A DNA stretch of 64,000 nt from Crossiella cryophila (lineage in GTDB: Bacteria; Actinomycetota; Actinomycetes; Mycobacteriales; Pseudonocardiaceae): assembly GCF_014204915.1 (NCBI RefSeq), contig NZ_JACHMH010000001.1, positions 7,217,501 through 7,281,500 on the forward strand, in the 5' to 3' direction. The translations under genes were made by a program, and so were the position numbers. The notes below the pieces were generated by a model. The model was not told where the DNA came from, ran no database searches, and saw nothing but the letters and a program-made list of their open reading frames with translations. Below, in pieces: positions 26,436 to 59,962 of this stretch (positions within the stretch are counted from its first letter, which is position 1; each line of letters starts with the position of its first letter).

Positions 26436-26753
26436 GGCGAAACTCCCTCGACATGGCGTAATTGCGGCGGCAGAGCGTGGAGAGGAAGTCCGGACCTTTT
26501 CTCCCTGCGGTTACCGAGGCTATTCACCGCACCGAAATCCCAGAACCCACGAATTCCCTATGCGCCCCATCGCAGATCCAAATAGTTGCCCTGACCTGCG
26601 AAGTTCCCGCGAACTCGTCGGCGTGTTGGCCGTTGTCGTACACGGTGTTGGCCGAACTGGGACACCCATTCCGGCCAAGACACCGTCCATAACGGCCAAC
26701 ACACCGTACGACAACGGCCAACACGGTGGTGGGTGCGCGGCTAGGGTTGGCGG
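26436..26753. other. NRPS-LysR divergent intergenic region
   Basis: No gene. From 26436 to 26600 the sequence is less GC-rich and probably carries the NRPS promoter. AGTTC-CCGC-GAACT (26602-26615) is a small inverted repeat that could be an operator for the LysR regulator. From 26623 to 26724 lies a composite palindromic repeat, described separately, only 30 bp before the LysR start. Confidence 0.5.
26623..26724. repeat. Composite palindromic repeat, copy A
   Basis: Bounded by a perfect 19-bp inverted repeat: GTGTTGGCCGTTGTCGTAC (26623-26641) and its exact complement (26706-26724). Inside are further TTGGCC modules: GTGTTGGCCGAACTGG (26645-26660) facing CGGCCAAGACACCGT (26672-26686) and ACGGCCAACACACCGT (26692-26707). 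The same arms recur at 33471 and 59863. Strand-symmetric, non-coding and confined to intergenic DNA. Confidence 0.85.
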
Positions 26754-27686
26754 GTGTCTGATGACTGGGGCAGGGCTGATCTGAACCTGCTGCTCCCGCT
26801 GAACGCACTGCTCATCGAGCGCAATGTGACCAGGGCCGCGGAACGCATCAGCGTGGCCCAGCCGTCGATGAGCGCGATGCTGGCGAAACTGCGCAGGCAT
26901 TTCGACGATCCGCTGCTCATCCGCGAGGGCAGGGGCATGGCGCTGACCCCGCTCGCGGAGTCGCTGGCCGGGCCGGTGCAGGCCGCGCTGGTGGCCGCGC
27001 GGGCGGTGCTCACCGCGGGCAGCCGCTTCGACCCGGCCACCGAGTCGCGCACCTTCAGCGTGCTGGCCAGCGACTACGCCGCCACCACGCTGCTGCGCCC
27101 CGCCCTGCGCGGATTGCTCACCGAGGCGCCGGGGGTGCGGCTGACCGTCGAGCCGCTGCGCGCCGACCTGGTGGAGGTGGTGCGCAGCGGCCGGTGCGAT
27201 CTGCTGCTGTGGCCACTGCAACTGCCCGAGCAGGAGCTGCTCCAGTTCCCGCACACCCCGCTGTTCGAGGACGAGTTCATCGCCGTGGTGGACCGGGACA
27301 ACCCGCTGACCGGACCGCTGACCAGGGCGGATCTGGCCAGGCTGCCCGCGGTGGAGGTCAACGGCGTCGGCGATCGGTGGGCCGTGCCCAGGGGCAAGCT
27401 GGCCGAGCAGGGGCTGCGCCAGCCCGCCGCGGTCACCGTGGAGTCCTTCACCCTTGGCCTGCAGATGGTGGCGGGCACGCACCTGATCACGCTGACCCAG
27501 CGACTGCTGTTCGAGGCGCTCGGGCCGGGCCTCGGACTGCGCGAGGTGCCGATGGCCGAGCCGGGACCGAAGCTGACCATCGCCGGGTTCTGGCACCCCA
27601 GGCAGGTGCTGGACCCGGCCAATCAGTGGCTGCGCGCGCACCTGGCCAGGGTGGCCGCCGGGCTGGGCGGCGTCAGGCCGTCTTGA
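26754..27686 (+). CDS. LysR-family transcriptional regulator (NodD/NahR-like)
   Basis: A 310-residue regulator. The N-terminal winged helix has ERNVTRAAERISVAQPSMSA and a recognition helix near residues 25-50; two Rossmann-like effector subdomains follow (LLLWPLQLPEQELLQ ... DEFIAVVDRDNPL). The ADLNLLLPLNALLIERNVTRAAE start resembles the NodD/NahR/LinR branch that responds to aromatic compounds. GTG start with a weak ribosome site. It is divergent from the NRPS gene and convergent, with a 14-bp overlap, with an SDR gene. Candidate targets are the NRPS or itself. Confidence 0.92.
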   Translation: MSDDWGRADLNLLLPLNALLIERNVTRAAERISVAQPSMSAMLAKLRRHFDDPLLIREGRGMALTPLAESLAGPVQAALVAARAVLTAGSRFDPATESRTFSVLASDYAATTLLRPALRGLLTEAPGVRLTVEPLRADLVEVVRSGRCDLLLWPLQLPEQELLQFPHTPLFEDEFIAVVDRDNPLTGPLTRADLARLPAVEVNGVGDRWAVPRGKLAEQGLRQPAAVTVESFTLGLQMVAGTHLITLTQRLLFEALGPGLGLREVPMAEPGPKLTIAGFWHPRQVLDPANQWLRAHLARVAAGLGGVRPS

Positions 27687-28461
27687 TCGCGCCGCCGTCG
27701 ATGAGGTGGTCGGTGCCGGTGATGCTGCCCGCCAGCGGTGAGGCCAGGTAGCCGACCAGGGCGGCGACCTCCTCGGGCTCCACGAATCGGCCCGTGGTGA
27801 GCCCCAGTCCGGCGGGCAGCTGGGCCAGGAACTGCGCGTGCGGCACGCCAAGCGAGCGGGCCAGGTCCGCGCCGTAGCCGTCCGGGGCCTCCCACATCGA
27901 GGTGCGCACCGGGCCGGGGGAAATGGTGTTCACCCGCACGCCCAACGGGGTGACCTCCTCGGCCAGTGCCTTGCCGAACGCGGTCAGGGCGGCCTTGGCG
28001 GTGGTGTAGGGCATCGGCCCGGCGTGCGGCATCCGGGCGCCGTTGGAGGAGATGTTGACGATCACGCCCTTGCGCCGCAGCAGGCTGGGCAGGGCGGCGC
28101 GGGTGGTGCGGACCGCGCTGAAGAAGTTCAGCTCGAACAAACGCTGCCACAGCTCGTCGTCGAAGGTGGCGAAGCCGCCGGTCTGACCGCCGTCGCTGTC
28201 CCCGCCGCCGACGTTGTTGACCACCAGGTCGATCTCGCCCAGCTCGGCCAGCGCGCCCTCGACCAGCCGGGCCGGTCCGTCGGCGGCGGACAGGTCGACC
28301 GGGATCGCGACCGCCCCGGAGGCGGCCAGTTCCGGGGAGACGGTGCGCGAGCCCGCCACCACCCGCATGCCCTCGCCGATCAGCGTGGTGACGATGGCCA
28401 GCCCGATGCCCCGGCTGGCGCCGGTGACCAGGGCGGTCTTGCCGCTCAGTTGCATGTCCAT
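27673..28461 (-). CDS. SDR-family oxidoreductase
   Basis: A 262-residue classical short-chain dehydrogenase. It has the TGASRGIG nucleotide-binding motif, NNVGG, catalytic Ser in NISSNGAR, the YTTAK catalytic Tyr-Lys and ISPGPVRT after the site. The Arg in GSRTV suggests NADP(H) preference. Substrate unknown. AAGGAG lies 8 bp before ATG 28461. It is divergent from a TetR gene across a long perfect palindrome, so it is most likely the regulated target of that TetR protein, possibly a response to a toxic carbonyl compound. Confidence 0.92.
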   Translation of the reverse strand: MDMQLSGKTALVTGASRGIGLAIVTTLIGEGMRVVAGSRTVSPELAASGAVAIPVDLSAADGPARLVEGALAELGEIDLVVNNVGGGDSDGGQTGGFATFDDELWQRLFELNFFSAVRTTRAALPSLLRRKGVIVNISSNGARMPHAGPMPYTTAKAALTAFGKALAEEVTPLGVRVNTISPGPVRTSMWEAPDGYGADLARSLGVPHAQFLAQLPAGLGLTTGRFVEPEEVAALVGYLASPLAGSITGTDHLIDGGAIKTA

Positions 28462-28502
28462 CTAGCCAGCTCCTTCTAGTCGCATCCGTATAGACCCTGC
28501 TA

Positions 28503-28540
28503 GCGCTCTAGTTGCGACACTAATGTTGCAACTAGAGCGC
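28503..28540. promoter_or_regulatory. 38-bp palindromic operator between SDR and TetR genes
   Basis: GCGCTCTAGTTGC (28503-28515) and GCAACTAGAGCGC (28528-28540) are perfect 13-bp inverted repeats separated by 12 AT-rich bases. The site lies 42 bp from the SDR start and 44 bp from the TetR start, the usual place for a repressor controlling both promoters. Confidence 0.75.
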
Positions 28541-28583
28541 GTCAAGGAGTCGCCCTGTACTGTTTCCCCGACAAGGAGGCTCG

Positions 28584-29195
28584 GTGACAGAGCAGGCTGG
28601 CTTGACTGGGCAGGAGTCGGCACGTCCGGCCGGGCGGGCGCGACGGGCGGATGCCGAACGCACCGTGCAGGCGATCCTGGAGGCGGCCGAGCGCGTGCTC
28701 AGCGCCGACCCCTCGGCCTCCATGGAGCAGATCGCCACCGCCGCCGGCGTGGCCAGGACCACCGTGCACCGCCGGTTCGCCACTCGCGACGTGCTGATCG
28801 ACGAGCTGACCGCCTGGGCCGCCCAGCGCTTCGGCGAGGCGGTGCGCCGTGGCCGCCCGGAGACCGCGCCGCCACTGGTCGCGCTCTACCAGGTGACCGC
28901 GAACGTGCTGGAGGTCAAGATCGGCTGGGGGTTCGCGATGAGCCGGACCTCAGCGGCCGATTCCCAGGTCGCGGGCGTGCACACGGGCGTGCGTGAACAG
29001 TGCGACCGGCTCTTCCTGCGGGCCAGGGACGCCGGGTTGTTCCGGCCCGACGTCGATCTGGACTGGGCCCGCCGGGTCTACTACGCGCTCATCCACGAGG
29101 CGGCCCAGCAGCCCGAACCGACCGACACCGACACGCTGGCCACGCTGGTGGTCAACACCCTGCTCCGCGGGATCGGCGCGAGCGGCGGGCTCTGA
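28584..29195 (+). CDS. TetR-family transcriptional regulator
   Basis: A 203-residue repressor. An extended basic N-terminus (RPAGRARRADAERT) precedes the helix-turn-helix (SMEQIATAAGVARTTVHRRFATRDVL); the rest is an all-helical ligand-binding and dimerisation domain. GTG start 4 bp after AAGGAGG. Divergent from the SDR gene with a 38-bp palindrome between them. Convergent with ilvA, with 10 bp between stops. The unknown inducer is probably the SDR substrate. Confidence 0.92.
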   Translation: MTEQAGLTGQESARPAGRARRADAERTVQAILEAAERVLSADPSASMEQIATAAGVARTTVHRRFATRDVLIDELTAWAAQRFGEAVRRGRPETAPPLVALYQVTANVLEVKIGWGFAMSRTSAADSQVAGVHTGVREQCDRLFLRARDAGLFRPDVDLDWARRVYYALIHEAAQQPEPTDTDTLATLVVNTLLRGIGASGGL

Positions 29196-29205
29196 ACCGC
29201 CGCGC

Positions 29206-30441
29206 TCAGACCAGGAACCGGTAGGCGGTGGTGCCCGGCGCCACGTGCTGGATGTGCAGCGGGGACTCCTTCATCCGCGCCCACAGCCGGTCGTAGTCCT
29301 CGGCCCGGCTGATCTCGATGCCGACCAGCGCGGCCCCGGTCTCCCGGTTGTCCCGCTTCTGGTACTCGAAGAGCACCACGTCGTCGTCCGGGCCGAGCAC
29401 GTCGTCCAGGAACCGGCGCAGCGCACCGGGTTCCTGGGGGAACTCGACCAGGAAGTAGTGCTTGAGGCCGCGGTGCACCAGTGAGCGCTCGACCACCTCG
29501 GCGTAGCGGCTCACGTCGTTGTTGCCGCCGGAGAGCAGGCACACCACGGTCTCGTCGGGTTCCACGGTGATCTCGCTGACCAGCGCGGCCGAGGCCAGCG
29601 CACCGGCGGGTTCGGCGATGATGCCGTCCACCTGGTAGAGGTCGAGCATCTCGGTGCACACCGCGCCCTCGGCCACGGTGAGCAGCTCGGCGCCGCTGTC
29701 CCGGACCATCGGGAAGGTCAGCTCGCCTGCCCGGCGCACGGCCGCGCCGTCGACGAAGGAGTCCACCTCGGGCAGGGTCACCGGTCCGCCACCGGCCAGC
29801 GCCGCGATCATGCTGGCCGCGCCCGCCGGTTCGACCCCGATCACCCTGGTGGCCGGGAAATGGTCCCGCAGCCAGGTGCCGACCCCGGCGAGCAGGCCGC
29901 CACCGCCGACCGGCACGATCACCACGTCCGGCGCGCCGCCGAGCTGACGCAGGATCTCCAGCCCGACGGTGCCCTGGCCGGCGATGGTGCGCGGATCGTC
30001 GAAGGCGGGCACCAGCACGGCGCCGGTGGCCGCGGCGTGTTCCTGGGCGAGTGCGGCCGCGTCGTCGTAGGTGTCCCCGTCCACCACCAGGCGGACCTTG
30101 CCCTGGCCGAGTGCCTCGATGCGGTCGCGCTTCTGCCGGGGCGTGGTCCGCGGCACGTGCACCCGGCCCTCGATGCCGAGGCGGCGGCAGGCGTAGGCCA
30201 CGCCCTGGCCGTGGTTGCCTGCCGAGGCGCAGACCGCCCCGGCCCCGGTGAACTCGGTCTGGGAGAGCAGGTTGAACGCCCCGCGCAGCTTGTAGGAGCG
30301 CCCGACCTGGAGGTCCTCGCGCTTGAACCACACCCGCGCGCCGGTGCGCTCGGACAGCCGCTGGTTGACCTCCAGCGGTGTGGTGCGGGCGACCCCGTCC
30401 AGCCGTGCGGCGGCCGAGGAAACCTCTTCAGCGAAGGACAT
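29206..30441 (-). CDS. ilvA: Threonine ammonia-lyase (biosynthetic, single ACT-like domain)
   Basis: A 411-residue PLP enzyme turning L-threonine into 2-oxobutanoate and ammonia, the first step towards isoleucine. The PLP lysine is in SYKLRGAFN, the phosphate-binding loop is PVGGGGLLAG, and a C-terminal regulatory domain (from KHYFLVEFPQEPGALRRFL to the end) resembles the ACT-like module that gives isoleucine feedback. The form with one regulatory domain is the shorter type common in actinobacteria. ATG 30441 is used; ATG 30450 (MGSMSF) is equally possible, with no strong ribosome site for either. No other ilv genes nearby. It could supply 2-oxobutanoate to metabolism in general. Confidence 0.9.
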   Translation of the reverse strand: MSFAEEVSSAAARLDGVARTTPLEVNQRLSERTGARVWFKREDLQVGRSYKLRGAFNLLSQTEFTGAGAVCASAGNHGQGVAYACRRLGIEGRVHVPRTTPRQKRDRIEALGQGKVRLVVDGDTYDDAAALAQEHAAATGAVLVPAFDDPRTIAGQGTVGLEILRQLGGAPDVVIVPVGGGGLLAGVGTWLRDHFPATRVIGVEPAGAASMIAALAGGGPVTLPEVDSFVDGAAVRRAGELTFPMVRDSGAELLTVAEGAVCTEMLDLYQVDGIIAEPAGALASAALVSEITVEPDETVVCLLSGGNNDVSRYAEVVERSLVHRGLKHYFLVEFPQEPGALRRFLDDVLGPDDDVVLFEYQKRDNRETGAALVGIEISRAEDYDRLWARMKESPLHIQHVAPGTTAYRFLV

Positions 30442-30527
30442 GGATCCCATTCTCGTGCAGGTCTGGCTGGGGTTTTGCCTGGTGTGGCGCGGGGCACCGT
30501 CCATTGTGCACCCGAGGGTGCGCCCGC

Positions 30528-31271
30528 TCACATGGTGATGATGGTGAAGACCGCGCCGTGCGGGTCGGTGAGCACCGCGGAGCGTCCGAGCACGGTGTCG
30601 GTGGGCCGTCCGGTGACCCGGCCGCCGAGCTGACCGGCCCGTTCGGCGGACTCGTCGCAGTCCCGGACGGCGAAGTAGGCCATCCAGTACGGCGTGGTGA
30701 TCTCGGGGTGGCCGGGGCGCATGCCCGCGACCGTGCGGCCCTCGATCCGCCACTGGGAGTACTCGACGTCACCCAGCCGCCGGTCCCTGGCCTCCCAGCC
30801 GAACACCTCGCCGTAGAAGGCCTTGGAGCCGTCGGAGTCGCCGGTGCTCAGCTCGTTCCAGCAGAGCGTGCCGGACTCGTTGAACAGCTCGCAGCCGGGC
30901 ATCTCCCCCGGCTCCCACACGCCGACCTCGGCCCCGGCCCGGTCGGTGAACACGCCGATCCGGCCGGTGTCGGCGACCTTCTTGGCCGGGAAGAGGACCT
31001 GGCCGCCCGCTGGTTCGACCCTGGCGGTGGTGGCCTCGGCGTCGTCGACGAGCACGAAGGTGCGCCAGGCAGTGCGCTGGCCGGGCGCCAGCAGCGGTCC
31101 GGCGCCCGCGACGGCCTTGCCGCCCTTGGTGAACACGGTGTAGCCGCCGGCCTCCGCTGGGGCCACGCGCGCCGACCAGTCGAACAGGCCCATGTAGAAG
31201 GACCGGGTCTGCGCGAGGTCCGGGGACCGCACGTCTATCCAGCCCGGGGTGCCCGGTGCCACTGCGCCCAT
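30528..31271 (-). CDS. Two-domain VOC (glyoxalase/bleomycin-resistance-like) protein
   Basis: A 247-residue protein made of two tandem vicinal-oxygen-chelate modules. The first begins [20 protein letters not shown], the second [23 protein letters not shown], and it ends [10 protein letters not shown]. Proteins of this pattern (27-kDa antigen/hydroxylase type) bind small ligands or metals; no single function can be given. GGAG precedes ATG 31271 by 5 bp. Transcribed towards ilvA with an 86-bp gap, and divergent from the P450 gene with 262 bp in which no clear site is seen. Confidence 0.85.
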
Positions 31272-31533
31272 GTGTGCTCCTGGTGCTCGTGCGTGCTCGT
31301 TCTCGGCACATCTTCTCAGCACGCACCGAGGTCAGTTCGTGACGGGGCGTGAGAACTGGTTGCGGGTGGGGCCCGCGGTGGACGGTACGCGGCCGTCCCG
31401 GGCGGTCGAGCAGCCGGTCCGGCACCCGCCGGATGGCGGTGATCAACTGCGCGACCTTGTGGTTTCGCCCGGGTTCGCTGACCCTGGATCACTCGCTCGG
31501 GTGAGGGAACGCGACCACTGGGGAGGAACGCGC

Positions 31534-32709
31534 ATGTCCGCACTCCAACTTCCGCTCAACCGTCCCAATCCACTGGCACTCGCGCCGCTGTACCAGGTGC
31601 TGCGCCGGGAGACGCCGGTGGTGCCGGTGATTACCCCGGCCGGCGACCCGGCCTGGCTGGTGCTCGGCTACGAGGAGGTGAAGCAGGTCTTCGCCGATCC
31701 CCGGTTCGGCCGGTCCCATCCCGAGCCGGAACGCGCGGGCAGGTTGGCGGAGTCGGCGATGGGCGGTGGCGCCGCCGGTGATCACGAGACGGAGCAGGCC
31801 GAGCACGCCCGCATGCGCAGGGCGCTTGGCCCGGCGTTCTCGGTGCCGCGGATGCGTCGGCTGACGGACCGGATCCAGGAGCTGACCGATCGCTGCCTGG
31901 ACGATCTCGCGGCCGCGGACCAGCCTGCCGACCTGCACCGGCTGGTCTCGTTCCCGTTGCCCGCACTGGCCATCAGCGAACTGCTCGGCGTGCCTGAGGC
32001 CGACAGCGCGCATTTCAGCCGCCTGTCCAGGGACCTCGGGCTCTTCGACGATCCGGCGGCCAGTCAGGCCGCGCTGGCCGAGTTCGCCGCCTACACCCTC
32101 GGCCTGGCCGCGGCCAAACGCGCGCAGCCGGGTCCGGACGTGCTCTCCGACCTGGTCGCCGACCCCACCATCACCGATGAGGTGGTGGCCCAGCTGGCCA
32201 TCGCGCTGCTCTTCGCCGGGCACGAGACGACAGCGACCCGGATCGACTTCGGCGTGCTGTGGCTGCTGTCCGATCCGGCCCGGCGGGCGGCGTTCACCGC
32301 GGACCCCGACGGCCAGGTTCAGTCCACAGTGGAGGAAGTACTGCGCCTGTCCGCACCGCACGGCCTTGGCCTGCTCCGCTACGCGCACGAGGACGTGGCG
32401 ATCGGCGGGGTGACCATCGGGCGCGGGGACATGGTGCTGGTGTCCAACGACGCCGCCAACCGGGACACCGCGGTGTTCCCCGACGCCGAGGAGTTCCAGC
32501 CCGGCCGGAAACCCAATCCCCACCTGGCTTTCGGCCACGGCAGGCACGTCTGCATCGGCGCCAACCTGGCCCGCGCCCAGCTCCGGATCCTGTTCCCGGC
32601 CCTGTTCCGCCGCTTCCCGAACCTGTCCCTGGTCGCCGGGGTGGAGGACCTCCCGCTGGTGACCAACGACCTCACCGGCGGGGTGGCCGAGGTGCTCGTG
32701 CGCTGGTGA
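31534..32709 (+). CDS. Cytochrome P450
   Basis: A 391-residue soluble bacterial P450. The I-helix oxygen-binding motif is AGHETTATR, the K-helix ExxR is EVLR, and the heme loop is [10 protein letters not shown] with Cys340 as the thiolate ligand. In most class I P450s the I-helix has an acid-alcohol pair; here it is Glu-Thr, which is standard. It needs ferredoxin and reductase partners that are not in the window. GGGAGGAA lies 6 bp before ATG 31534. A methyltransferase follows after 46 bp with its own likely promoter, so the two may form a small oxidise-then-methylate tailoring unit (inference). Confidence 0.93.
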
Positions 32710-32742
32710 CCGAACTCGGTCGCACCTGTCGCGGACTCGCTC

Positions 32743-32755
32743 TAGGCTGGCCGGA
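32743..32755 (+). promoter_or_regulatory. Leaderless -10 element before the methyltransferase
   Basis: TAGGCT (32743-32748) matches TANNNT and ends 7 bp before ATG 32756, the spacing expected when transcription begins at the start codon. No ribosome site precedes the ATG. Confidence 0.45.
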
Positions 32756-33466
32756 ATGGACGTGTCGACCATTGCCGTGCCCCACACCCTCGCCCACCTC
32801 AAGCCACTGCTGCCCCCGCCTCCGGCCCGCATCCTGGAGGCGGGGTGCGGCAGTGGCGCGCTGGCCGCCGCGCTGATCGGACTCGGCTACCGGGTCACCG
32901 GCGTGGATCGCAGTCCCGACGTGGTCGCCGCCGCTCGCGAGCGCGGGGTGGAGGTGATCGAGGCCGATGTCAACGAGGTCTCCGGCGAGTACGACGTGGT
33001 GCTGTTCACCCGGTCGCTGCACCACGCGGAGGACCTGGACGGCACCCTGGCGCACGCGGCCACCCTGCTCGCGCCGGGCGGGCTGATCGTGCTGGAGGAA
33101 TTCGCCTGGGAACGGGTGGACCAGCCCGCCGCGCACTTCTACTACGACAACCGAGCCCTGCTCGTCGCCACCGGCGTACTCAAAGCCGAGGTGCCCGAAG
33201 GGGACCCGCTCAAGGCCTGGGTCGCCGGCCACGACTTCCTGCACCGGGGCTCCGACATGCTGGACGCCCTCAGCCGAGTCGGCACCAATCTGTCCACAGT
33301 AGACACCCCGATGCTGTGGCGCCTGGTATACGGCCGTTCCGGGATCTGGACCGACCCCGCCACCCACGCCACGAGCGCGCTCAACGCGATCCACCAGTCC
33401 GAACAACGACGGCTGGACGCAGGCATGATCCCGTCCATCGGCCTGCTGGCCACCGTCCAGCGCTAA
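32756..33466 (+). CDS. Class I SAM-dependent methyltransferase
   Basis: A 236-residue methyltransferase with motif I LEAGCGSGAL, motif II VTGVDRSPDVV and the post-II stretch YDVVLFTRSLHHAEDL typical of the Methyltransf_11/UbiE-like group. LLAPGGLIVLEEF follows. Substrate unknown; small-molecule O- or C-methylation is likely. Probably leaderless (TAGGCT 7 bp upstream). It ends 4 bp before a composite palindromic repeat, which may double as its transcription end. Confidence 0.88.
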   Translation: MDVSTIAVPHTLAHLKPLLPPPPARILEAGCGSGALAAALIGLGYRVTGVDRSPDVVAAARERGVEVIEADVNEVSGEYDVVLFTRSLHHAEDLDGTLAHAATLLAPGGLIVLEEFAWERVDQPAAHFYYDNRALLVATGVLKAEVPEGDPLKAWVAGHDFLHRGSDMLDALSRVGTNLSTVDTPMLWRLVYGRSGIWTDPATHATSALNAIHQSEQRRLDAGMIPSIGLLATVQR

Positions 33467-33470
33467 CGCC

Positions 33471-33612
33471 GTGTTGGCCGTTCTCGTACGGTGTGTTGGC
33501 CGAACTGGACGGTGTGTTGGCCGTTCTCGTACGGTGCTTTGGCCGTTCCGGACGGTGTTGGCGTTCCGGGTGTACCAGTTCGGCCAAGACTGTGTACGAC
33601 AACGGCCAACAC
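33471..33612. repeat. Composite palindromic repeat, copy B (expanded)
   Basis: Left arm GTGTTGGCCGTTCTCGTAC (33471-33489); right arm GTACGACAACGGCCAACAC (33594-33612), matching except for one central base. The left half is duplicated in tandem: the arm recurs at 33513 with a 42-bp period, separated by the inner module GTGTTGGCCGAACTGGACGG. Degenerate modules follow (TTTGGCCGTTCCGGACGG, TGTTGGCGTTCCGG), then ACCAGTTCGGCCAAGACTGT. It fills the gap between two convergent genes. Confidence 0.85.
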
Positions 33613-33625
33613 GCCGTCTTTCGGA

Positions 33626-34156
33626 CTACCCGCGGAGCTGGCCGCGGACCGCGCCTGCCGGGTATTCCGTGTTGTGCACGTTGACGTAGAACTGGCCTGG
33701 CGTGCGCTTCAGCTCACGCGCCAGTGCCGGGTCCACGTCGGTGCAGGTGCGACTGCGACCCTCGACCGGGGTCTTCAGGTGCAGGGCGACCGGACCGGCG
33801 GTGCCGGACTTGCCGCGGTGGATGTGTGCGGCGGTCGGCGCGCCGATCCGGCTCACCGACAGGGAAACGCAGACCTCGCGGTGGCCGATGCGCACCTGGG
33901 CGGTGCCGCGGCCGTCGGGGTCGCCGGGGCCGGGGACCTCGGCCGCGCCGGTCAGCCAGGCCGACCGGTAGCTGCCGCCGCCGAGCAGGTTGCCCAGGTC
34001 CAGATCGATACCGATGCCAATGCCGATTCCGATGCCGACATCCGGTCCGCGGTCACGGTCCTGGGCGGTGGCGGCGGCCGCGCCGGGGGCGGCGGCGAGC
34101 AGCGCCAGGCAGGCGGTTGCTGCCGGGATTGCGAGGGTGCGGATGGACATACGCAT
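33626..34156 (-). CDS. Secreted CHRD-domain protein with Gly-Ile repeat
   Basis: A 176-residue exported protein: signal peptide (RMSIRTLAIPAATACLALLA ... GAAAA), a low-complexity run VGIGIGIGIGIDLDL encoded by repeating hexamers near 34010-34045, then a CHRD domain (AAHIHRGKSGTAGPVALHL and YVNVHNTEYPAGAVRGQL), a chordin-derived beta-sandwich often found with superoxide dismutase-like histidines in bacteria. ATG 34156 with GGAGG about 9 bp upstream gives the best signal peptide; the frame extends to 34186. Function unknown. First of three secreted-protein genes on this strand. Confidence 0.82.
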   Translation of the reverse strand: MRMSIRTLAIPAATACLALLAAAPGAAAATAQDRDRGPDVGIGIGIGIGIDLDLGNLLGGGSYRSAWLTGAAEVPGPGDPDGRGTAQVRIGHREVCVSLSVSRIGAPTAAHIHRGKSGTAGPVALHLKTPVEGRSRTCTDVDPALARELKRTPGQFYVNVHNTEYPAGAVRGQLRG

Positions 34157-42810: not shown

Positions 42811-42811
42811 A

Positions 42812-52616: not shown

Positions 52617-52617
52617 G

Positions 52618-53046
52618 TCAGCCCAGGGCCTTGATCATCGTTTCCCAGGAACGCAGGAACTCCGGGTACTCGGCGGCGAAATCGGCCAGCGCGCGCTCAC
52701 CAGCCGGGCTGAGCGGGGTGAGCTGATAGGTGACGGTGACCGTGCAGCCGGTGCCACTGGGTTCGATCTCCACGGTGACCGTGCCCGCCCGCGAACCCGG
52801 GGTCACCCTGGCGTAGGAGATCCGCCGGTCCGGTTCGCGGTCCAGCACGATCCAGGTGGTGCACTCACCATCCACTGTGGTCTCGAAGACGGTGCCGGGC
52901 TCCGAATCGTCCACTGTGGACACCGGGAACCTCGGCTGCCAGCCGGGCACCCAGCGCTCCTCGCCGCGGGCGGTGAACAGCGGGAAGGCCGCCGCGGGGG
53001 CCATGGCGAGCGGGAAGCGTCCGGTCAGGTGCCGCGTGGCCGTCAT
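52618..53046 (-). CDS. SRPBCC (START-like) protein
   Basis: A 142-residue protein with the START/Bet v1-like cavity fold: RHLTGRFPLAMAPAAAFPLF at the start, GTVFETTVDGECTTWIVLDR and TVTVTYQLTPLSPAGERALADF later. These bind lipids or aromatic ligands or act as polyketide cyclases; no catalytic residues can be named. It lies 14 bp downstream of a LysR gene on the same strand and may share its transcript. Confidence 0.85.
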   Translation of the reverse strand: MTATRHLTGRFPLAMAPAAAFPLFTARGEERWVPGWQPRFPVSTVDDSEPGTVFETTVDGECTTWIVLDREPDRRISYARVTPGSRAGTVTVEIEPSGTGCTVTVTYQLTPLSPAGERALADFAAEYPEFLRSWETMIKALG

Positions 53047-53060
53047 GGGGGCCACCGTAC

Positions 53061-53876
53061 TCAGGAGGCGCTGGCCGGTTTGCGTTGGGCCAGCACGGTG
53101 CGCGCGGTGCGCAGGAAGGCCGCGACCGCCGGTTGCGGGGCGCTCTCCGGCCAGGCCAGCACCAGCCGGGTCGCGGGCAGATCGGCCACCGGGACCGTCA
53201 CCACGGCCTGGCCGACCCGGTCGGCGGTGCTCGCGCCCGCCACCACGATCAGCCTGCCGAAGGCCACCCGGTCCACGATCTCGTCCAGGGCCAGCGGCGG
53301 GCACTCCGGGGTGTAGCCGTCCAGGGCCCGCAGGTCGGCCTGGGTGACCGCGACCCGGCCGGCGAGCGCGTGGCCGGGCGGCAGCAGCGCGACCGGGGTC
53401 TCCTCCAGCAGTTCCAGGGTGCGCAGGCCGGACAGGTCGTCCGTGCTCGCGCACAGCACCGCCAGATCGGCCTCCCCCGCTCGCAGGGCGGCGGCGCGGT
53501 CGAGCACGAACACGATCTCCACCCCGGCCGGCCCGTACGCGCTGACCAGGTCGGCCAGCAGCCCGGCGCCCGCACCCGGCCGGACCGCGAGCACCAGCCG
53601 CGGCGGCGCCCCGGCCCGCTGGGTGCGACTGGCCGCGGTGTCCAGGGCGGCCAGCGCGCGGCGGCCCTCGGTGCGCAGCACCTGCCCGGCCGCGGTCAGT
53701 TCGACCCGGCGGCTGGTGCGCTCGAACAACCGCACGCCCAGGCGGCGTTCCAGGCGGCTGATCGCCCTGGACAGCGGCGGCTGGGCCATCCCGAGCCGGT
53801 CGGCGGCCCGGCCGAAATGCAGTTCCTCGGCGACCGCGAGGAAATACTCCAGCTCCCGCGTCTCCAGTCGATCCAT
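53061..53876 (-). CDS. LysR-family transcriptional regulator
   Basis: A 271-residue regulator, a little short for the family. Helix-turn-helix HFGRAADRLGMAQPPLSRAISRLE, effector domain with LVLAVRPGAGAGLLADLV and DLAVLCASTDDLSG. Divergent from the SnoaL/MDR operon; GTACCG-GT-CGGTAC lies in the 69-bp gap. Followed by the SRPBCC gene. Confidence 0.92.
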   Translation of the reverse strand: MDRLETRELEYFLAVAEELHFGRAADRLGMAQPPLSRAISRLERRLGVRLFERTSRRVELTAAGQVLRTEGRRALAALDTAASRTQRAGAPPRLVLAVRPGAGAGLLADLVSAYGPAGVEIVFVLDRAAALRAGEADLAVLCASTDDLSGLRTLELLEETPVALLPPGHALAGRVAVTQADLRALDGYTPECPPLALDEIVDRVAFGRLIVVAGASTADRVGQAVVTVPVADLPATRLVLAWPESAPQPAVAAFLRTARTVLAQRKPASAS

Positions 53877-53885
53877 ACCCGCAGG

Positions 53886-53899
53886 GTACCGGTCGGTAC
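53886..53899. promoter_or_regulatory. Inverted repeat between LysR and SnoaL genes
   Basis: GTACCG (53886-53891) and CGGTAC (53894-53899) are perfect 6-bp inverted repeats with a 2-bp spacer, 10 bp from the LysR start and 47 bp from the SnoaL start. A candidate site for the LysR protein. Confidence 0.5.
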
Positions 53900-53945
53900 T
53901 CAGGTGATCATCGCTCTACCTGCTTTGACCTGGTCGGATGGGGTC

Positions 53946-54380
53946 ATGAGCGAAGAACGCAAGGTGGCCGAGGTACTGGCCCGCTATGTCCGCGCCACCG
54001 ACGACCGCAACGGTCCGGCCCAGGGCGCGCTGTTCACCGAGGACGCCGTCGTGGAGGTCATGGTCCGCAGTGGCAAGGGCTACGAGAAGGTCGGCGAGCC
54101 GCTGATCGGCAGCGCCGGGGTGGCCTGGGCGGTGGAGAACCTGATGGCCCCGCACCCGCCCGGCGGATCCAGCCACCACATGACCGCCGACCACATCATC
54201 GAGGTCAACGGCGACATCGCGCACCTGAGCGCGCAGGTGATCCACTTCTCGGTGCGGGAGGAGATCCGCCCGGTCGAATCCGCCTACTACGACACCGATC
54301 TGCGCAAGATCGACGGCGAGTGGAAGATCACCCACCACTGCGTGCTGCTGGACCGCCCGATGGTCGGACCGGACGCGTGA
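53946..54380 (+). CDS. SnoaL/NTF2-like protein
   Basis: A 144-residue cone-fold protein: EVLARYVRATDDRNGPAQGALFTEDAVVEV, SSHHMTADHIIEVNGD and the closing DLRKIDGEWKITHHCVLL are typical. The fold serves polyketide cyclases, isomerases and dehydratases, or simple ligand binding. It shares an overlap with the MDR gene (TGATG), so both are cotranslated. Confidence 0.88.
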   Translation: MSEERKVAEVLARYVRATDDRNGPAQGALFTEDAVVEVMVRSGKGYEKVGEPLIGSAGVAWAVENLMAPHPPGGSSHHMTADHIIEVNGDIAHLSAQVIHFSVREEIRPVESAYYDTDLRKIDGEWKITHHCVLLDRPMVGPDA

Positions 54381-55300
54381 TGCGCGCGATGGTCTACCGC
54401 CGCTTCGGCGGCCCCGAGGTCCTCGAACCCGCTGACCTGCCCGAACCCAAGACGCACCTGGACTCGGTGCTGGTGCGGGTGCGCGCCGCCGCGCTCAACC
54501 CGGCGGACCTGTCCAACCAGTCCGGCCTGTTCGAGCACACCCTGGAAACCCACTTCCCGGTGGTGCCCGGCTGGGACATCGCCGGGGTGGTCGAACGGGC
54601 CGGGCTCGGCGCACCCGAGTTCAAGCCGGGTGACGAGGTGATCGGCTACATCCGCGGCGAGCTGATGCGCGCGCACGGCGGCCTGGCCGAACTGGTGGCC
54701 ACCGACGTCCGCACCCTGCTGCCCAAACCGGCCGGGTGGTCCTGGGCGGAGGCGGCCGGGCTGCCGCTGGCCGGGCTGACCGCGTATCAGGCCATCGTCC
54801 GGGTGCTGGACGTGCGGCCAGGCGAGACCCTGCTGGTGCACGCGGCCTCGGGCGCGGTCGGCTCGCTGGCCGCGCAGCTGGCGAAGTTCCGCGGGGCGCG
54901 GGTGATCGGCACCGCCTCGCCGCGCAACCACGACTACCTGCACGAACTGGGCGTCGAGCCGGTCGGCTACGGGCCGGGCCTGGCCGATCGGGTGCTGGAA
55001 CTGGCCGCCCTCGGCGTGGACGCGGTGCTGGACGCGGCCGGGCGCGGCACGCTGCCCGCGACCGCGGCGGTCGGGAGGCCAGGGGCGCGGCTGGCCTCGG
55101 CGGCGGAGTTCGGGCTGCCGGGCGTGGCGAATGTGTTCGTCCGGCTGGACCCAGCGGACTTCCGGGCGGTGGCCACGCTGGCCGAGCAGGGCGTGCTGCG
55201 CGTGCGGGTCGGCGCGACCTTCCCCCTGGACCAGGCGGCGCAGGCGCAGCGGGTGCTGGCCGCGGGCACCAGCCAGGGCAAGGTCGTGGTGGAGATCTGA
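54380..55300 (+). CDS. MDR-family NADPH:quinone reductase-like protein
   Basis: A 306-residue medium-chain reductase without a zinc site. Segments are MVYRRFGGPEVLEPADLPEP, AAALNPADLSNQSGLF, VVPGWDIAGVVERAG, LLVHAASGAVGSLAAQLAKF (nucleotide binding) and VDAVLDAAGRGTLP. It should reduce an enone or quinone using NADPH. Coupled to the SnoaL gene by a one-base overlap and regulated from the divergent LysR side by position. Confidence 0.9.
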   Translation: MRAMVYRRFGGPEVLEPADLPEPKTHLDSVLVRVRAAALNPADLSNQSGLFEHTLETHFPVVPGWDIAGVVERAGLGAPEFKPGDEVIGYIRGELMRAHGGLAELVATDVRTLLPKPAGWSWAEAAGLPLAGLTAYQAIVRVLDVRPGETLLVHAASGAVGSLAAQLAKFRGARVIGTASPRNHDYLHELGVEPVGYGPGLADRVLELAALGVDAVLDAAGRGTLPATAAVGRPGARLASAAEFGLPGVANVFVRLDPADFRAVATLAEQGVLRVRVGATFPLDQAAQAQRVLAAGTSQGKVVVEI

Positions 55301-55315
55301 GTACCGCACCTCTCA

Positions 55316-55345
55316 TGTTAGCTGCTAACATGTTAGTGGCTAACA
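55316..55345. promoter_or_regulatory. Tandem palindromic TetR operators before FAD monooxygenase
   Basis: TGTTAGC-T-GCTAACA (55316-55330) is a perfect 15-bp palindrome. Immediately after it, TGTTAG-TGG-CTAACA (55331-55345) is a second one. They lie head to tail with a 15-bp period, AT-rich in GC-rich DNA, ending 13 bp before the monooxygenase GTG. The TetR gene at the end of the same operon is the obvious binder. Confidence 0.8.
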
Positions 55346-55358
55346 TGGGGAGGTCGCG

Positions 55359-56864
55359 GTGCCGTACACGTCAGCGCTGGTGGTGGGGGCTGGACCGACG
55401 GGATTGACGCTGGCCTGCGCGTTGCGCGCGGCCGGGGTGGGGGTCCGGGTGCTGGATGCGGCACCCGGTCCGGCCACCACCACCGGCGCGCTGGGCCTGC
55501 CGCCACGTGCGGTGGAGGCCCTGGACCGGCTGGGTGCGCTGCCCGCGCCCGCGGTGCCGGTGGCCGGGGTGAGCGTGGCCGGGCGGGAACTGCGGTTCGG
55601 GCCGGACGGGGTGCTGGCGTCCCAGGCGCAGATCGAGACCGCGTTGCGGGAGCGCCTGGACCGGCTGGGGGTGGCGGTCGAGTGGGGGCTGGCGGTCAGC
55701 GGGATCCGGACCGAGGGCGAGGTGGTCGAGGTGCGGGCAGGCGCGGAGCTGATCAGGGCGGGCTGGGTGATCGGCTGCGACGGCGCGCACAGCGCGGTCC
55801 GGGCCGCGGTGGGCATCGACTTTCCAGGACAGCCGTTGCACGAGCGGCTCCAGGTCGCCGATGTGCGGGCGGAGCTGAAGCGGCCTCGGGACACGGTGGC
55901 GGTGTGGTTCCGTGCGGACGGGTTCCTGGCGGCCTTCCCGCTGCCGGGCCCGGATCGGTGGCGGTTGATGGGGCCGGACGGGGCTGATCTGCCCGGCTGG
56001 CTGCGGGAGGAGACCGGGGCCGAGGTCGGCGAGGTCACCTGGGCGTCGGCGTTCCCGGTGCAGCGGCGGCTGGCCACGGCCTACCGGCGGGGGCGGGTGC
56101 TGCTGGCCGGGGATGCCGCGCACGTGCACGCGCCGCTGGGTGCGCAGGGGCTGGCCACCGGGATCGGGGACGCGGAGAACCTGGGCTGGAAGCTGGGTGC
56201 GGTGATCCTCGGCCGGGCCGGGGCGGAGCTGCTGGACAGTTACGAGGCGGAGCGGCGGCCGGTGGCGGCCCAGGTGCTGCGGGTGACCAGCGAGGCGACC
56301 AACGTGCTGTTCAGCCAGGGCTGGGCGGCCCGGCTGGCCCGCGGGCTGGTGCTGCGCTCGCGCTGGATGCGGCGGCGGATCGCGGCGCGGGCCTCGCAGC
56401 TACGGGTGAGTTACCGGCGCGGACCGCTGGGGGCGGCGGCGGGCCAGGGTGAGCAGGTGGCCGAGGCCGCAGAGCAGGGGGTGCGGCTGGCCCAGGTGGC
56501 GATGGGGCCGGGGTCCTGGCTGGGCGGGGTCGGCACCGCGCCGGTGACCGGGCTGGGCCGGGTCAGGGCCGGGGACCGGGTGCCGGATTTCCCGTGTCAC
56601 CGCGCCAGTGGCGTGCCCACCCGGCTGCACGCCGAACTCGGCGGGCACTGGGCACTTCTCTCCCCCTTCGCCGACCAGAGCCACCTGGTCCGGCCGTGGC
56701 TGGGGGAAAGCGTGGTCGACCTGCGCTGGCCGCACAACGAACTCGCGCTGATCCGCCCGGACGGTCACCTGGCCTGGCGCGGCCACCACAGCACCGACCT
56801 CCAGCGCTGGCTCACCGGGGCCCTCGGGCCGGTCTCCCCCGCGACGCCGATACTCACCCGGTGA
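55359..56864 (+). CDS. FAD-dependent aromatic monooxygenase (RdmE/PgaE-like)
   Basis: A 501-residue class A flavin hydroxylase. FAD-binding VVGAGPTGLTLACALRAAG at the N-terminus, the DG motif VIGCDGAHSAVRAAVG and the GD motif VLLAGDAAHVHAPLGAQGLA in the middle, then a thioredoxin-like C-terminal domain. It uses NAD(P)H and O2 to hydroxylate phenolic rings, as in polyketide tailoring or resistance to tetracycline- or rifamycin-like compounds. GTG 55359 lies 5 bp after GGGGAGG. The stop overlaps the TetR gene start (GTGA), making a self-contained, self-regulated unit. Confidence 0.93.
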   Translation: MPYTSALVVGAGPTGLTLACALRAAGVGVRVLDAAPGPATTTGALGLPPRAVEALDRLGALPAPAVPVAGVSVAGRELRFGPDGVLASQAQIETALRERLDRLGVAVEWGLAVSGIRTEGEVVEVRAGAELIRAGWVIGCDGAHSAVRAAVGIDFPGQPLHERLQVADVRAELKRPRDTVAVWFRADGFLAAFPLPGPDRWRLMGPDGADLPGWLREETGAEVGEVTWASAFPVQRRLATAYRRGRVLLAGDAAHVHAPLGAQGLATGIGDAENLGWKLGAVILGRAGAELLDSYEAERRPVAAQVLRVTSEATNVLFSQGWAARLARGLVLRSRWMRRRIAARASQLRVSYRRGPLGAAAGQGEQVAEAAEQGVRLAQVAMGPGSWLGGVGTAPVTGLGRVRAGDRVPDFPCHRASGVPTRLHAELGGHWALLSPFADQSHLVRPWLGESVVDLRWPHNELALIRPDGHLAWRGHHSTDLQRWLTGALGPVSPATPILTR

Positions 56865-57460
56865 GCGAGACGGACTGGCGGGCCAGGAAGAAGGCGAGCA
56901 CCCGCCGCGCGATCAAGGACCACGCCCTGCGGCTGATCCTGGCCAACGGGTTCGAGGCGACCACGGTGGAGGAGATCGCGGCGGCCGCCGGGGTCTCGCA
57001 CATGACCTTCTTCCGGCACTTCCCGCGCAAGGAGAACGTGGTCGAGATAGACGACTACGACGCGCTGATGGGTGAGCAGCTGGCCGCCCGGCCGGTGGAC
57101 GAGCCACCTCTGACCGCGGTGCACCGGGCCGTGCGCGGCGCGGTGGTGCGGATCCCGCCCGCGGATCAGGCCACCATCCTGGTCCGGGCCACGCTGGTGC
57201 TGCGCACCCCGGCCCTGCGCGACCGCAACCACCTCAACCTGCAGACGGGCAAGGAGAACTTCGCCGCCTGGCTGGCCAGTCGCGCCGGTCAGGCCGAACC
57301 GGACCTGGCCACCAAGGTGCTGGCCGGGGCCGCGGTGGCCGCGCTGTCCAGTGCGATCACCGCCTGGGTGGAGCAGGAGGGCGCCGTCGGCCTGGAACTG
57401 TTGCTGGACGAGGCTTTCGGCGCCCTCGGCGTGCCACCGGTCACGGCAGCAGCAGGGTGA
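56861..57460 (+). CDS. TetR-family regulator of the monooxygenase
   Basis: A 199-residue repressor: basic RARKKASTRRAIKDHALRLI, helix-turn-helix TVEEIAAAAGVSHMTFFRHFPRKENV, then a helical effector domain. The GTG start overlaps the monooxygenase stop, so both are made together, and two operator-like palindromes sit at the operon front. This is negative autoregulation. Its end overlaps the penicillin-acylase-like gene by 20 bp tail to tail. Confidence 0.93.
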   Translation: MSETDWRARKKASTRRAIKDHALRLILANGFEATTVEEIAAAAGVSHMTFFRHFPRKENVVEIDDYDALMGEQLAARPVDEPPLTAVHRAVRGAVVRIPPADQATILVRATLVLRTPALRDRNHLNLQTGKENFAAWLASRAGQAEPDLATKVLAGAAVAALSSAITAWVEQEGAVGLELLLDEAFGALGVPPVTAAAG

Positions 57461-59786
57461 TCCGGTCCGCGTTGCGTTCCACCGCGGCGCGGCTGTAGAG
57501 CAGCGGGAAGTACCGGCCCTCGCGCCATTTCCCGGCCAGGTCGCGGTAGTGCGGATCGGCCTGCCTGCCGGACTGGCCGGGGGTGTTGATCGCGCGGGCG
57601 GCGTCCCAGTTGCCGACGTCGAGCACCATCCGGAAGGAGGCCCCGCCGGTCTGCCGGAAGTCGGTGCGCCGGTAGCCGGAGGCGTTCACCGTGTCCTTGG
57701 AGCCGCCGCGAGGGAACGGGCCGACGTCGAAACGGGCCCGCTCCTCCGGGGACAGCGTGGGGCTGAGCGGGTGCTGGAACAGGGTGTGCTGCAACTTGCC
57801 CCACTGCCAGGCTCCGGGATCGTTGCCCAGCAAGGTTTCCGCCTCCCGCCAGGCCGCGGCCAGGGTCTCGTTGACGAGCTGGTTCCGCTTGGCCACCGGG
57901 TCCGCGCCGAACCACTTCTCCGGGTGGGACAGGGCGTCCAGCACGGTGCGGCTGTCCGGGACCGCGATCAGTGGTGCGGCGGCCGGGGACAGGGCGCGGA
58001 CCAGGCCGGGGTTGAGGTGCCGGGCCAGCCACAGCTCGAACAGCGCGGCCTGCGCCGATTCCTTGCTCTCCACCGCGTTCCAGCCACGCAACAGCGTCAA
58101 TGCCTTGGCGGCCAACGGGTCCGCGCCGGGCACGGTGGCCAGTACCGCGGTGAGCTGGCGGGCCGGGATGGAGAGCTGGTCGTTCTGCAGGCGCATCGCG
58201 TCGGCCACGCTGAACCGCCGGTCCGCGGCCAGCACCTCGGTGATCCGCTGGTGCCGGTAGGGCGCGGACCACTCGAAGCCGATCGGGTGCGGGAAGCCGG
58301 GCGGCAGGTTGAACTGGTTGGCGGTGGCCACGAAGCCCTGCGGCGGGTTGTAGGCGTGCGGCAGGTCGTCACCGGTGTGGAAACCGGTCCACTCGAACCG
58401 GCCGTCACCGGGGGCGGGCAGCAGGCCGTCGTAGCCGGAGCGTTTGGGCGCCAGGCCGCCGGGCACCCAGCCGATGTTGCCGCTGGTGTCGGCGTAGACC
58501 TGGTTCTCCGTTGGCGCGCCCCAGTTCCGCATGGCCGCCTTGAACCCGGCGAAGTCCCGCTCGTACATGTAGCGCACGCTGCCGAAGTAGGGCGCCATGC
58601 CCGGTTCCAGCCAGCCGCTGCGCACCGCGAAGGCCCGCCCGGCCGCGGTGGTCAGCACCGGGCCGTGCCGGGTGAACGGCAGCTCGACCTCCACGGGTTC
58701 CTTGCCCGCCACCGGGATCCGCTCGCGCAGTACCCGGATCGGCTCCCAGCCGTCCTGGTACCGGTAGCGCGTGGGGTCGGCCGGGTCGAGCTGGTAGACG
58801 TAGAGGTCTTCCTGGTCCATCCGGAAAATGGTGAGCCCGAAGGCGATCCGGCCGTTGTGGCCGATGGAGATGCCGGGCAGCGCGGGCTCGTTCGCGCCGA
58901 TCACGTCCAGGCCGGGTGCGGACAGGTGGCTCAGGTAGCGCAGGGACGGCGCGGAGTAGGCGCGGTGCGGGTCGTTGGCCAGCTGGGCGCGGCCGGTGCC
59001 GGTGCGGCTGGGTGCCACGGCCCAGTTGTTGCTGCCCTCGCTGAACTCCTCCTTCGCGGTGGCCACCACCTGGCCGCCGGTGAAGGCGACCTGCTGGGTG
59101 GCCAGCTCGAAGGTGCGCAGCACGTTGGCCGGGAGCACGCACGGGTCCAGCCCGCCGGGCGGCTGGATCGGCCGGTCCGGTTGCAGTGGCTGACGCAGTT
59201 TGTCCGTTTCCAGCCCGGCCGCGCAGGCCACCCTGGACCTGGTGACCTCGTCGGTGAGGTTGCCGGTCAGGCCGTGGCTGCGGATGCGCACCACGTCCTC
59301 CGGCGCCCAGCGCGCCGGCCGGTAGCCGAGGCGACGGAACTCCTCGGGCAGTGCGGCGGGGTTGCGTTCCAGGTGCGCAACGTAGGCGTTGATGCCCTGG
59401 GTGAACCGGGTGGCGATGCCGCGGGCGCGCTCGCCGTAGGCGGCCCACTCGCGGTCCATGTCACCGCGGTAGAGGAACATCCGGGCAGCCCGGTCCTGCT
59501 CCACGTAGTTCGGGCCGAGCACCTCGGCGAGCTGCCCGAGTCCGCGCCGCCGCCACAGGTCGATCTGGAACAGCCGGTCCCGCGCGGCGATGAAGCCCTG
59601 GGCCAGGAAAGCGTCATCCTGGCTGGTGGCGTAGACGTGCGGCACGCCCCAGGTGTCGGTGACCACCCGCACCGGGCCGCGGACGCCCGGGATGTGGTGC
59701 ACGGCGGTCGGGGGCGCGGCCACGGCCGGGGTCAGTCCGGCACCCGCGGTCACCAGCACGAGCCCTACCAGCAAGAATCGTCTCAC
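57441..59786 (-). CDS. Secreted penicillin-acylase-family amidohydrolase
   Basis: 781 residues, Ntn-hydrolase fold. Signal peptide VRRFLLVGLVLVTAGAGLTP ... VAA, then the alpha part (GVPHVYATSQDDAFLAQGF, RLFQIDLWRR). The maturation site is EEFSEGSNNWAVAPS, where cleavage before Ser frees the catalytic N-terminal Ser of the beta subunit. NDPH, ISIGHNGRIAFGLT and VYADTSGNIGWVPGG are conserved. Family members cleave beta-lactam side chains, acyl-homoserine lactones or lipopeptide acyl groups; the substrate cannot be told. GTG 59786 follows GAGGGG by 9 bp; the frame extends upstream into the repeat at 59863 but that part is not protein-like. Confidence 0.93.
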   Translation of the reverse strand: MRRFLLVGLVLVTAGAGLTPAVAAPPTAVHHIPGVRGPVRVVTDTWGVPHVYATSQDDAFLAQGFIAARDRLFQIDLWRRRGLGQLAEVLGPNYVEQDRAARMFLYRGDMDREWAAYGERARGIATRFTQGINAYVAHLERNPAALPEEFRRLGYRPARWAPEDVVRIRSHGLTGNLTDEVTRSRVACAAGLETDKLRQPLQPDRPIQPPGGLDPCVLPANVLRTFELATQQVAFTGGQVVATAKEEFSEGSNNWAVAPSRTGTGRAQLANDPHRAYSAPSLRYLSHLSAPGLDVIGANEPALPGISIGHNGRIAFGLTIFRMDQEDLYVYQLDPADPTRYRYQDGWEPIRVLRERIPVAGKEPVEVELPFTRHGPVLTTAAGRAFAVRSGWLEPGMAPYFGSVRYMYERDFAGFKAAMRNWGAPTENQVYADTSGNIGWVPGGLAPKRSGYDGLLPAPGDGRFEWTGFHTGDDLPHAYNPPQGFVATANQFNLPPGFPHPIGFEWSAPYRHQRITEVLAADRRFSVADAMRLQNDQLSIPARQLTAVLATVPGADPLAAKALTLLRGWNAVESKESAQAALFELWLARHLNPGLVRALSPAAAPLIAVPDSRTVLDALSHPEKWFGADPVAKRNQLVNETLAAAWREAETLLGNDPGAWQWGKLQHTLFQHPLSPTLSPEERARFDVGPFPRGGSKDTVNASGYRRTDFRQTGGASFRMVLDVGNWDAARAINTPGQSGRQADPHYRDLAGKWREGRYFPLLYSRAAVERNADRITLLLP

Positions 59787-59862
59787 GACCAGTCCCCTCG
59801 CCGACGCCTGTCCGACCACCCTGCCGCAGGTCGACCAGGAAGGCGAGTAAGGATCTGCCGGT

Positions 59863-59962
59863 GTGTTGGCCGTTGTCGTACACAGTCTTGGCCGAACTGG
59901 TACGCCGATCGGCCAACACACCGTCCAGTTCGGCCAACACACCGTACGAGAACGGCCAACAC
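59863..59962. repeat. Composite palindromic repeat, copy C
   Basis: Left arm GTGTTGGCCGTTGTCGTAC (59863-59881), identical to copy A; right arm GTACGAGAACGGCCAACAC (59944-59962), the complement of the copy B arm, so the two arms differ by one base. Inside are CTTGGCCGAACTGGTACG (59887-59904), GATCGGCCAACACACCGT (59907-59924) and CAGTTCGGCCAACACACCGT (59926-59945). It lies between two minus-strand genes. Confidence 0.85.

Follow-up and report, generated by a model that had tools for sequence, protein, structure and literature searches.

The window, a stretch of 64,000 nucleotides (positions 7217501-7281500) of the Crossiella cryophila chromosome (G000, one contig of 10,058,141 bases), carries three copies of an intergenic repeat, all of them present where a preceding sequence-only reading had located them. 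Copy A lies between the divergent starts of an NRPS gene (20781-26435, minus strand) and a gene for a LysR-type regulator (26754-27686, plus strand), 29 bp before the start of the latter. Copy B separates the convergent stop codons of a methyltransferase gene (32756-33466, plus strand) and a CHRD-domain gene (33626-34156, minus strand), and copy C is found between a gene with no Pfam match (59974-60561, minus strand) and a penicillin-amidase gene (57441-59759, minus strand), upstream of the latter. The window copies are, in this regard, a mixed sample, with A in a divergent setting, B in a convergent one and C at a 3' end in tandem. Given these flanking genes as called, the assignment of all three copies to the space between genes is correct. 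The 19-bp arm reported to be shared and inverted at both ends is equally real, with seven exact matches in the window (starts at 26623, 26706 (-), 33471, 33514, 33594 (-), 59863 and 59944 (-)) against 0.02 expected from shuffles. The features are as follows:

26623-26724, no strand: copy A, inward array of the ~100-bp type between divergent gene starts; exact arms, 0 mismatches
26623-26641, plus: outer left arm of A, 22-bp unit; exact match
26645-26663, plus: inner unit of A (TTGGCCGAACTGG variant), spaced 22 bp from the outer one; differs from the arm consensus at 4 positions
26706-26724, minus: outer right arm of A; exact match
33471-33612, no strand: copy B, array between convergent stop codons; begins 4 bp past one stop and ends 13 bp from the other
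33471-33489, plus: outer left arm of B; exact match
33514-33532, plus: second arm of B, at a period of 43 bp (22+21); exact match
33572-33590, minus: inner inverted unit of B; 4 mismatches
33594-33612, minus: outer right arm of B; exact match
59863-59962, no strand: copy C, inward array, ends 11 bp past the stop of the gene at 59974-60561 (minus); exact arms
59863-59881, plus: outer left arm of C; exact match
59885-59903, plus: inner unit of C; 4 mismatches
59944-59962, minus: outer right arm of C; exact match

Five Crossiella genomes were compared (G000 and four others, G001 to G004). Every copy consists of units of 22 bp, or sometimes 21 bp, of the form GTGTTGGCCG-NNNNN-GTAC-NNN, arrayed in one direction and then inverted. 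GTGTTGGCCG and GTAC are conserved within the unit and the five bases between them are variable, the middle of the unit differing also from species to species. Counted unit steps measure 22 bp 110 times and 21 bp 20 times in G000, 238 and 106 times in G001, and 55 and 8 times in G002. GTAC occupies unit positions 13-16, with C as its fourth base at a frequency of 0.77 and G at 0.18 in G000; in the G001 unit, GAGTTGGCCCAASTGGTACGCC, a C follows GGCC at 22%, compared with 1-2% in G000 and G002. When mismatches were allowed in a 1.6 Mb sample of G000, the 19-mer was found 43, 47, 22, 28 and 32 times with 0, 1, 2, 3 and 4 mismatches, respectively, versus 0, 0, 0, 1 and 13 times in the sequence reversed. 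A stretch of about 12 bases, poor in G and rich in C, flanks the outermost unit, often right behind a stop codon.

Array length and orientation differ from copy to copy: both inward (>><<) and outward (<<<>>>) orders occur, as do single-direction arrays such as >>>>. The modular build proposed earlier, with variable number and order of units, is thereby borne out. The inner modules (TTGGCCGAACTGG) that had been considered separate do exist, but they are variants of the same 22-bp unit as the arm. Likewise, the repeat within copy B, described as a 42-bp tandem duplication, is present with a period of 43 bp (33471 to 33514), that is, one 22-bp and one 21-bp unit step, and is nothing special. A single unit appears weakly palindromic (147 units, median MFE -4.7 versus -3.1 when shuffled; 13 of the 147 pass a strict GCCGT/ACGGC stem test), and units in opposite orientation give larger hairpins, both in inward and in outward arrays, the window copies folding on both strands.

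A family of three copies proved far too small an estimate. The exact arm occurs 302 times in G000 (153 on the plus and 149 on the minus strand), where a backwards control pattern is absent, so that neither a chance triplet nor chance similarity in general can account for it. A coding origin is ruled out as well, with only 1 of 41 array clusters overlapping a called ORF in the 1.6 Mb G000 sample, and so is a known Rfam RNA, given that no match at gathering score was obtained for the window or for loci L192, L197, L248 and L249. Exact arms number 156 in G001, 102 in G002, 3 in G003 and 0 in G004, and tandem unit pairs, in a looser scan with two mismatches allowed, number 700, 263, 296, 285 and 3 from G000 to G004. 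With 285 pairs but 3 exact arms, G003 therefore holds the family in a variant form of its own, GTACCTCGTG, whereas in G004 it is nearly absent.

No spread outside Crossiella was found, either among 55 genomes from the order's other genera, none of which has the exact arm, or in the scan of 385 genomes elsewhere in the family, which gave 0-2 unit pairs per genome; the ten genomes with one or two pairs are much like the six in which the control pattern gave 1-3 matches each. Among the matches listed, 118 of 120 arm-bearing stretches belong to Crossiella sp. S99.2, and the remaining two, from a proteobacterial MAG and a Weissella assembly, each carry just one 19-mer and no array. The genome sets of the order and the family are the basis for the absence outside the genus. 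The repeats are a large, genus-specific, non-coding family. Their distribution along the G000 chromosome is uneven, the exact arm being absent from 338 kb to 1.77 Mb, a gap whose probability under uniform spread is about 1e-10 even for 150 independent elements. A literature search on Crossiella repeats and actinomycete REPs, with most subscription journals outside its scope, gave, among the papers listed, no title or abstract opening describing the family. The family is real, sizeable and, as far as such searches reach, unnamed.

The arrays settle at gene ends, mostly at convergent junctions. With gene orientation taken from a custom caller that may misplace start codons and a few small genes, arrays occupy 15 of 216 convergent gene pairs, 7 of 860 tandem pairs and 1 of 218 divergent pairs (convergent 15/216 versus the rest 8/1078, odds ratio 10, p 2e-7). 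When the window is added to the 1.6 Mb G000 sample, an inward-pointing stop codon lies within 45 bp of 34 of 72 array ends, and within 20 bp of 26, the remaining 38 ends having none within 45 bp. The corresponding figures are 133 and 99 of 268 ends in G001, and 61 and 49 of 80 ends in G002, in both cases for loci fetched because they hold arms. The gene-end association suggested earlier is supported within the genus, as is the likeness to REP/BIME or MITE elements.

Whole modules are copied to separate loci. In G001, 15 copies of a 121-bp type are spread over separate loci, of which 12 are convergent, with identities of 91-100%. Over 102 bp, copy A shares 95.1% identity with a G002 copy whose locus is convergent and does not match that of copy A (L309). 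At the locus of copy A itself, G001 carries a shorter variant array; at that of copy B, it lacks an array and has some 2.5 kb of other DNA that includes a glycosyltransferase-like gene; and at that of copy C, an unrelated hairpin and no array. A wider comparison of these two species, based mostly on G001 loci chosen for holding an arm, matched 12 G000 elements. Three of them align straight through the array at 94-96% over 2-3 kb, eight carry an array in each species, with unequal unit numbers and sequences between flanks mostly 90-96% identical, and one, copy C, has no array in G001.

The sister species G002 and G004 are about 96% identical. Thirty-six G002 array loci were paired with G004 (L366, with no match, and L033 and L039, unpaired, were left out), two of which lack one flank in G004; at all 34 comparable sites, no array is found anywhere in the G004 locus. 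At 17 of these sites the G004 junction measures at most 20 bp, with stop codons often overlapping or nearly touching, and at the other 17 it is taken up by 33-624 bp of other sequence, with plain hairpins among them (L373, L382 and L385). At some junctions, one species has an array and another an ordinary hairpin. Another repeat family was also observed in G004 at two sites (L377 and L383).

The idea that these differences arise because convergent spacers are unstable in general is not supported, albeit in a small sample: 11 comparable array-free convergent spacers of at least 25 bp could be aligned with identities of 0.67-1.0 (median 0.93, none below 0.6), one of them, of 418 bp, being perhaps uncalled coding sequence, and a twelfth long spacer being excluded as an array. 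Twelve shorter array-free spacers have a median identity of 0.79, with one below 0.6.

As for the direction of change, G000, G001 or G003 served as the reference at ten loci. At L367, a spacer of 26-31 bp is common to G000, G001 and G004 and the array is found in G002 alone, and therefore it is G002 that changed; L363 and L316 point in the same direction. No array was seen in the relatives inspected at L357, L313 and L364, the far flank not being found for L357 and L313. At L372, L370, L362 and L307, arrays are at or near the site in G000 and/or G001 too, and therefore loss in G004 or repeated gain would both fit. The evidence on loss in G004 versus gain in G002 is consequently mixed, and for most sites we infer the direction only tentatively.

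The three window copies fold strongly on both strands, with z between -5.8 and -8.8. Copy A (26611-26736) reaches -74.1 kcal/mol on the plus and -70.8 on the minus strand (z -7.3 and -5.8), copy B (33460-33622) -91.1 and -85.1 (z -7.4 and -8.8), and copy C (59851-59974) -69.8 and -68.5 (z -6.5 and -6.1). In the nine of 15 element-bearing convergent spacers that were folded, those of 400 bp or more being omitted, the median z is -9.1 and eight fall below -3, compared with 44 of 73 ordinary convergent spacers. As expected of an intrinsic terminator, a stable hairpin stands soon past the stop codon; the U-tract that should follow it is lacking, with T-runs of at least four found anywhere on the plus strand in three of the nine element-bearing spacers, versus eight of 73 without an element. 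In this regard, the U-poor terminators of Streptomyces (PMC12207403, PMC8355165) make a transcript-end role plausible.

Taken together, strong folding on two strands and the presence of arrays or ordinary hairpins at the same junctions favour a bidirectional transcript-end role. We consider it reasonably probable, short of firm, that the family is a REP/BIME-like, non-autonomous dispersed repeat that would act as a bidirectional end-of-transcript hairpin, possibly by termination. In this reading, 22-bp units are strung in helical phase, at two turns of DNA, into short arrays, and two arrays that face each other form a long, imperfect hairpin that can be read from either side. Whole modules, about 100-121 bp in length, are copied to new sites by a putative machinery and are retained chiefly right behind stop codons, most of all where genes converge. 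At such places, the hairpin would most likely serve as a bidirectional transcript end, as a terminator and/or a 3' RNA stabiliser, and would insulate the two converging genes, in the role of the ordinary short hairpin found at some of these junctions in relatives.

Several observations speak against a terminator. Copy A sits between two divergent gene starts, hardly a place for a terminator; seven tandem pairs and one divergent pair also carry arrays; and G004 lives with almost none. The 38 of 72 array ends that have no inward-pointing stop nearby, the scarcity of T-runs and, in G000 and G001, the failure of the two arms of an element to match each other better than arms of different elements count against it too. 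Furthermore, convergent spacers need no promoters, and therefore mere tolerance could yield the observed placement. Tolerance is part of the first alternative, a plain MITE whose outer arms are terminal inverted repeats moved by a transposase in trans and whose hairpin has no function for the host. We regard such an element as unlikely, if still credible. The near-identical full-length modules at separate loci are what it would leave behind, as are the array-bearing and compact array-free alleles of the sister species and the short direct repeats found at the insert ends in 4 of the 17 compact sites (TAGC, GCTAG, ACGCTTAG and GACC, of 4, 5, 8 and 4 bp). These direct repeats, however, range from 4 to 8 bp and overlap or adjoin stop codons, which selection would maintain in any case, and one of them differs at a single base in G004 itself. 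The check for empty sites and target duplications proposed earlier has thus yielded array-free sites, but no target-site duplication of constant length at the 17 compact G002/G004 sites. The variable length and orientation of the arrays also sit poorly with a MITE. At several G002 sites, moreover, the hairpin of G004 is absent, being neither split nor left beside the element. A further reading, doubtful but conceivable, is that a putative protein reading the 22-bp units swaps the whole convergent spacer, from stop to stop, for a phased array hairpin, so that existing terminators would be exchanged, the array not being inserted next to them, in a process that could be switched off or reversed, as in G004.

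The suggestion that the copies are hosts of a transposase encoded elsewhere found no support in the searches made. In a profile search, the Y1_Tnp domain of RAYT-type enzymes (PF01797) gave no match in G002, which has 102 arms, nor in G003 and G004; G000 has one match with an internal stop, and G001 three, one of them in an open frame of 301 aa. Mu-transpos_C (PF09299), the domain of TnsB/MuA/TniA-type transposases, gave no match in G000, G002, G003 and G004, and one in G001. Neighbouring arrays less than 6 kb apart (30 pairs from the G000 sample, the window and 118 G001 loci) were inspected as well: six pairs enclose called genes, none of which is transposase-like by its first 60 residues, and the other 24 enclose none, which also counts against a MITE.

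Each 22-bp unit could instead be the site of a sequence-specific protein, be it a nucleoid protein, a roadblock terminator or a transposase, with symmetry and hairpin as by-products, a reading to which we give little credence. It agrees with the conservation of units phased at 22/21 bp and with the existence of single-direction arrays. In addition, the arms of one element match each other no better than those of different elements in G000 and G001 (p 0.75-1.0), and therefore pairing is not visibly selected there. Against it stand the strong folding on both strands, the arms of G002, where those of one element do match better (27 of 33, versus 17 expected), and the variation between species in the middle of the unit. 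Tn7- and Mu-type transposon ends are arrays of about 22-bp transposase sites in inverted arrangement. The Crossiella arrays resemble them in unit size and inversion; as the sole explanation they are rejected, PF09299 being absent from four of the five genomes.

RAYT enzymes are thought to move GTAG-type REPs. REP elements mobilised by RAYT in the strict sense, in spite of sharing their placement with the published REPs (PMC3733652) and forming dimers of opposite-orientation units, are highly improbable here, since G002, G003 and G004 have no Y1_Tnp match, that of G000 is interrupted, and of the three in G001 one lies in an open frame. In addition, the unit has mostly GTAC, and not GTAG, at its conserved end, and taken singly seems but weakly palindromic. 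On the PF01797 results, RAYT mobilisation as the sole explanation is rejected.

The transcript-end hairpin that we favour can also be set against known repeats. Mycobacterial MIRUs are tandem-unit intergenic repeats abutting stop codons; their repeats are direct and lie where the stop and start of co-directional genes overlap. The Crossiella arrays are like them in being tandem-unit intergenic repeats that abut stops in an actinobacterium, and differ in being inverted and mostly between convergent stops. With MITEs they share terminal inverted arms (in inward-type copies), a length of about 100-150 bp and near-identical copies at separate loci, but unlike MITEs they have no constant target duplication, no partner transposase in the searches made and a variable number and order of units. 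As in the U-poor terminators (PMC12207403) and hairpin clusters (PMC8355165) of Streptomyces, long GC-rich hairpins follow soon after stops with few U; unlike ordinary terminators, taken as unique sequences, one dispersed Crossiella repeat supplies many.

The closest parallel is with REP/BIME elements. According to PMC3733652, published REPs lie mostly between convergent and co-directional genes, and the ends of GTAG-REPs often provide the TAG stop; in two diagrammed species, most REPs between convergent genes are no more than 20 bp away from either 3' end. High copy number, intergenic position, units of about 20 bp in direct and inverted order and proximity to 3' ends are common to both (PMC3733652). 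In contrast to these GTAG- and CGTC-tagged families, the Crossiella unit is a 22-bp in-phase tandem repeat, seemingly weakly self-palindromic and with mostly GTAC in place of a GTAG tag, and the family includes a carrier of 102 arms with no RAYT match, forms composites of about 900 bp and belongs to an actinobacterial genus. The Crossiella family works like REP/BIME but is not filed as a GTAG-REP.

Our findings would add a large REP/BIME-like family, from an actinobacterial genus and without RAYT, to the known intergenic repeats. Its interest resides in a mobiliser that is missing from the searches made and in a pair of sister species with and without arrays. G002 and G004 constitute a natural experiment at many identical gene junctions, and therefore the role of intergenic palindromes for convergent genes becomes directly testable. 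The findings also suggest that transcript-end hairpins can be supplied wholesale by one dispersed repeat.

The family of 22-bp-unit arrays is almost wholly missing from one Crossiella genome, G004, which diverges by about 4% from its sister species G002. Allowing 1-2 mismatches, tandem unit pairs number 3 in the whole genome of G004 vs 296 in that of G002. Within the C. cryophila chromosome, where arms are otherwise frequent, no exact arm is found across 1.43 Mb (G000:C1:338361-1772538); judging from strand bias, this stretch perhaps adjoins the replication origin.

Some C. cryophila arrays bound a core of ~640 bp, forming long composites:

L192:11985-12848, array-flanked core
L197:4764-5667, array-flanked core
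L248:7-897, array-flanked core
L249:15848-16729, array-flanked core

The core holds about three long hairpins and no called gene, and the copies compared are 85-87% identical. A core probe matched 11 loci in the 1.6-Mb C. cryophila sample, and none in the window or in the G002 and G004 samples.

At the convergent junction holding copy B in C. cryophila, Crossiella sp. S99.2 carries about 2.5 kb that, judged by eye, includes a glycosyltransferase-like gene and apparent insertion-sequence debris:

L277:14489-17011, orthologous to the site of copy B

A second dispersed repeat, TTGGCGCGCTCCGCGCGCGGGATTTTTCGC..., consists of a hairpin followed by a T-run. It stands instead of the array at convergent junctions that carry the 22-bp array in other species:

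L410, C. cryophila, second repeat
L416, G003 (another Crossiella genome), second repeat
L377 and L383, G004, second repeat

This repeat is present at 3 loci of the C. cryophila sample and accounts for 17 of 40 among the G004 matches listed.
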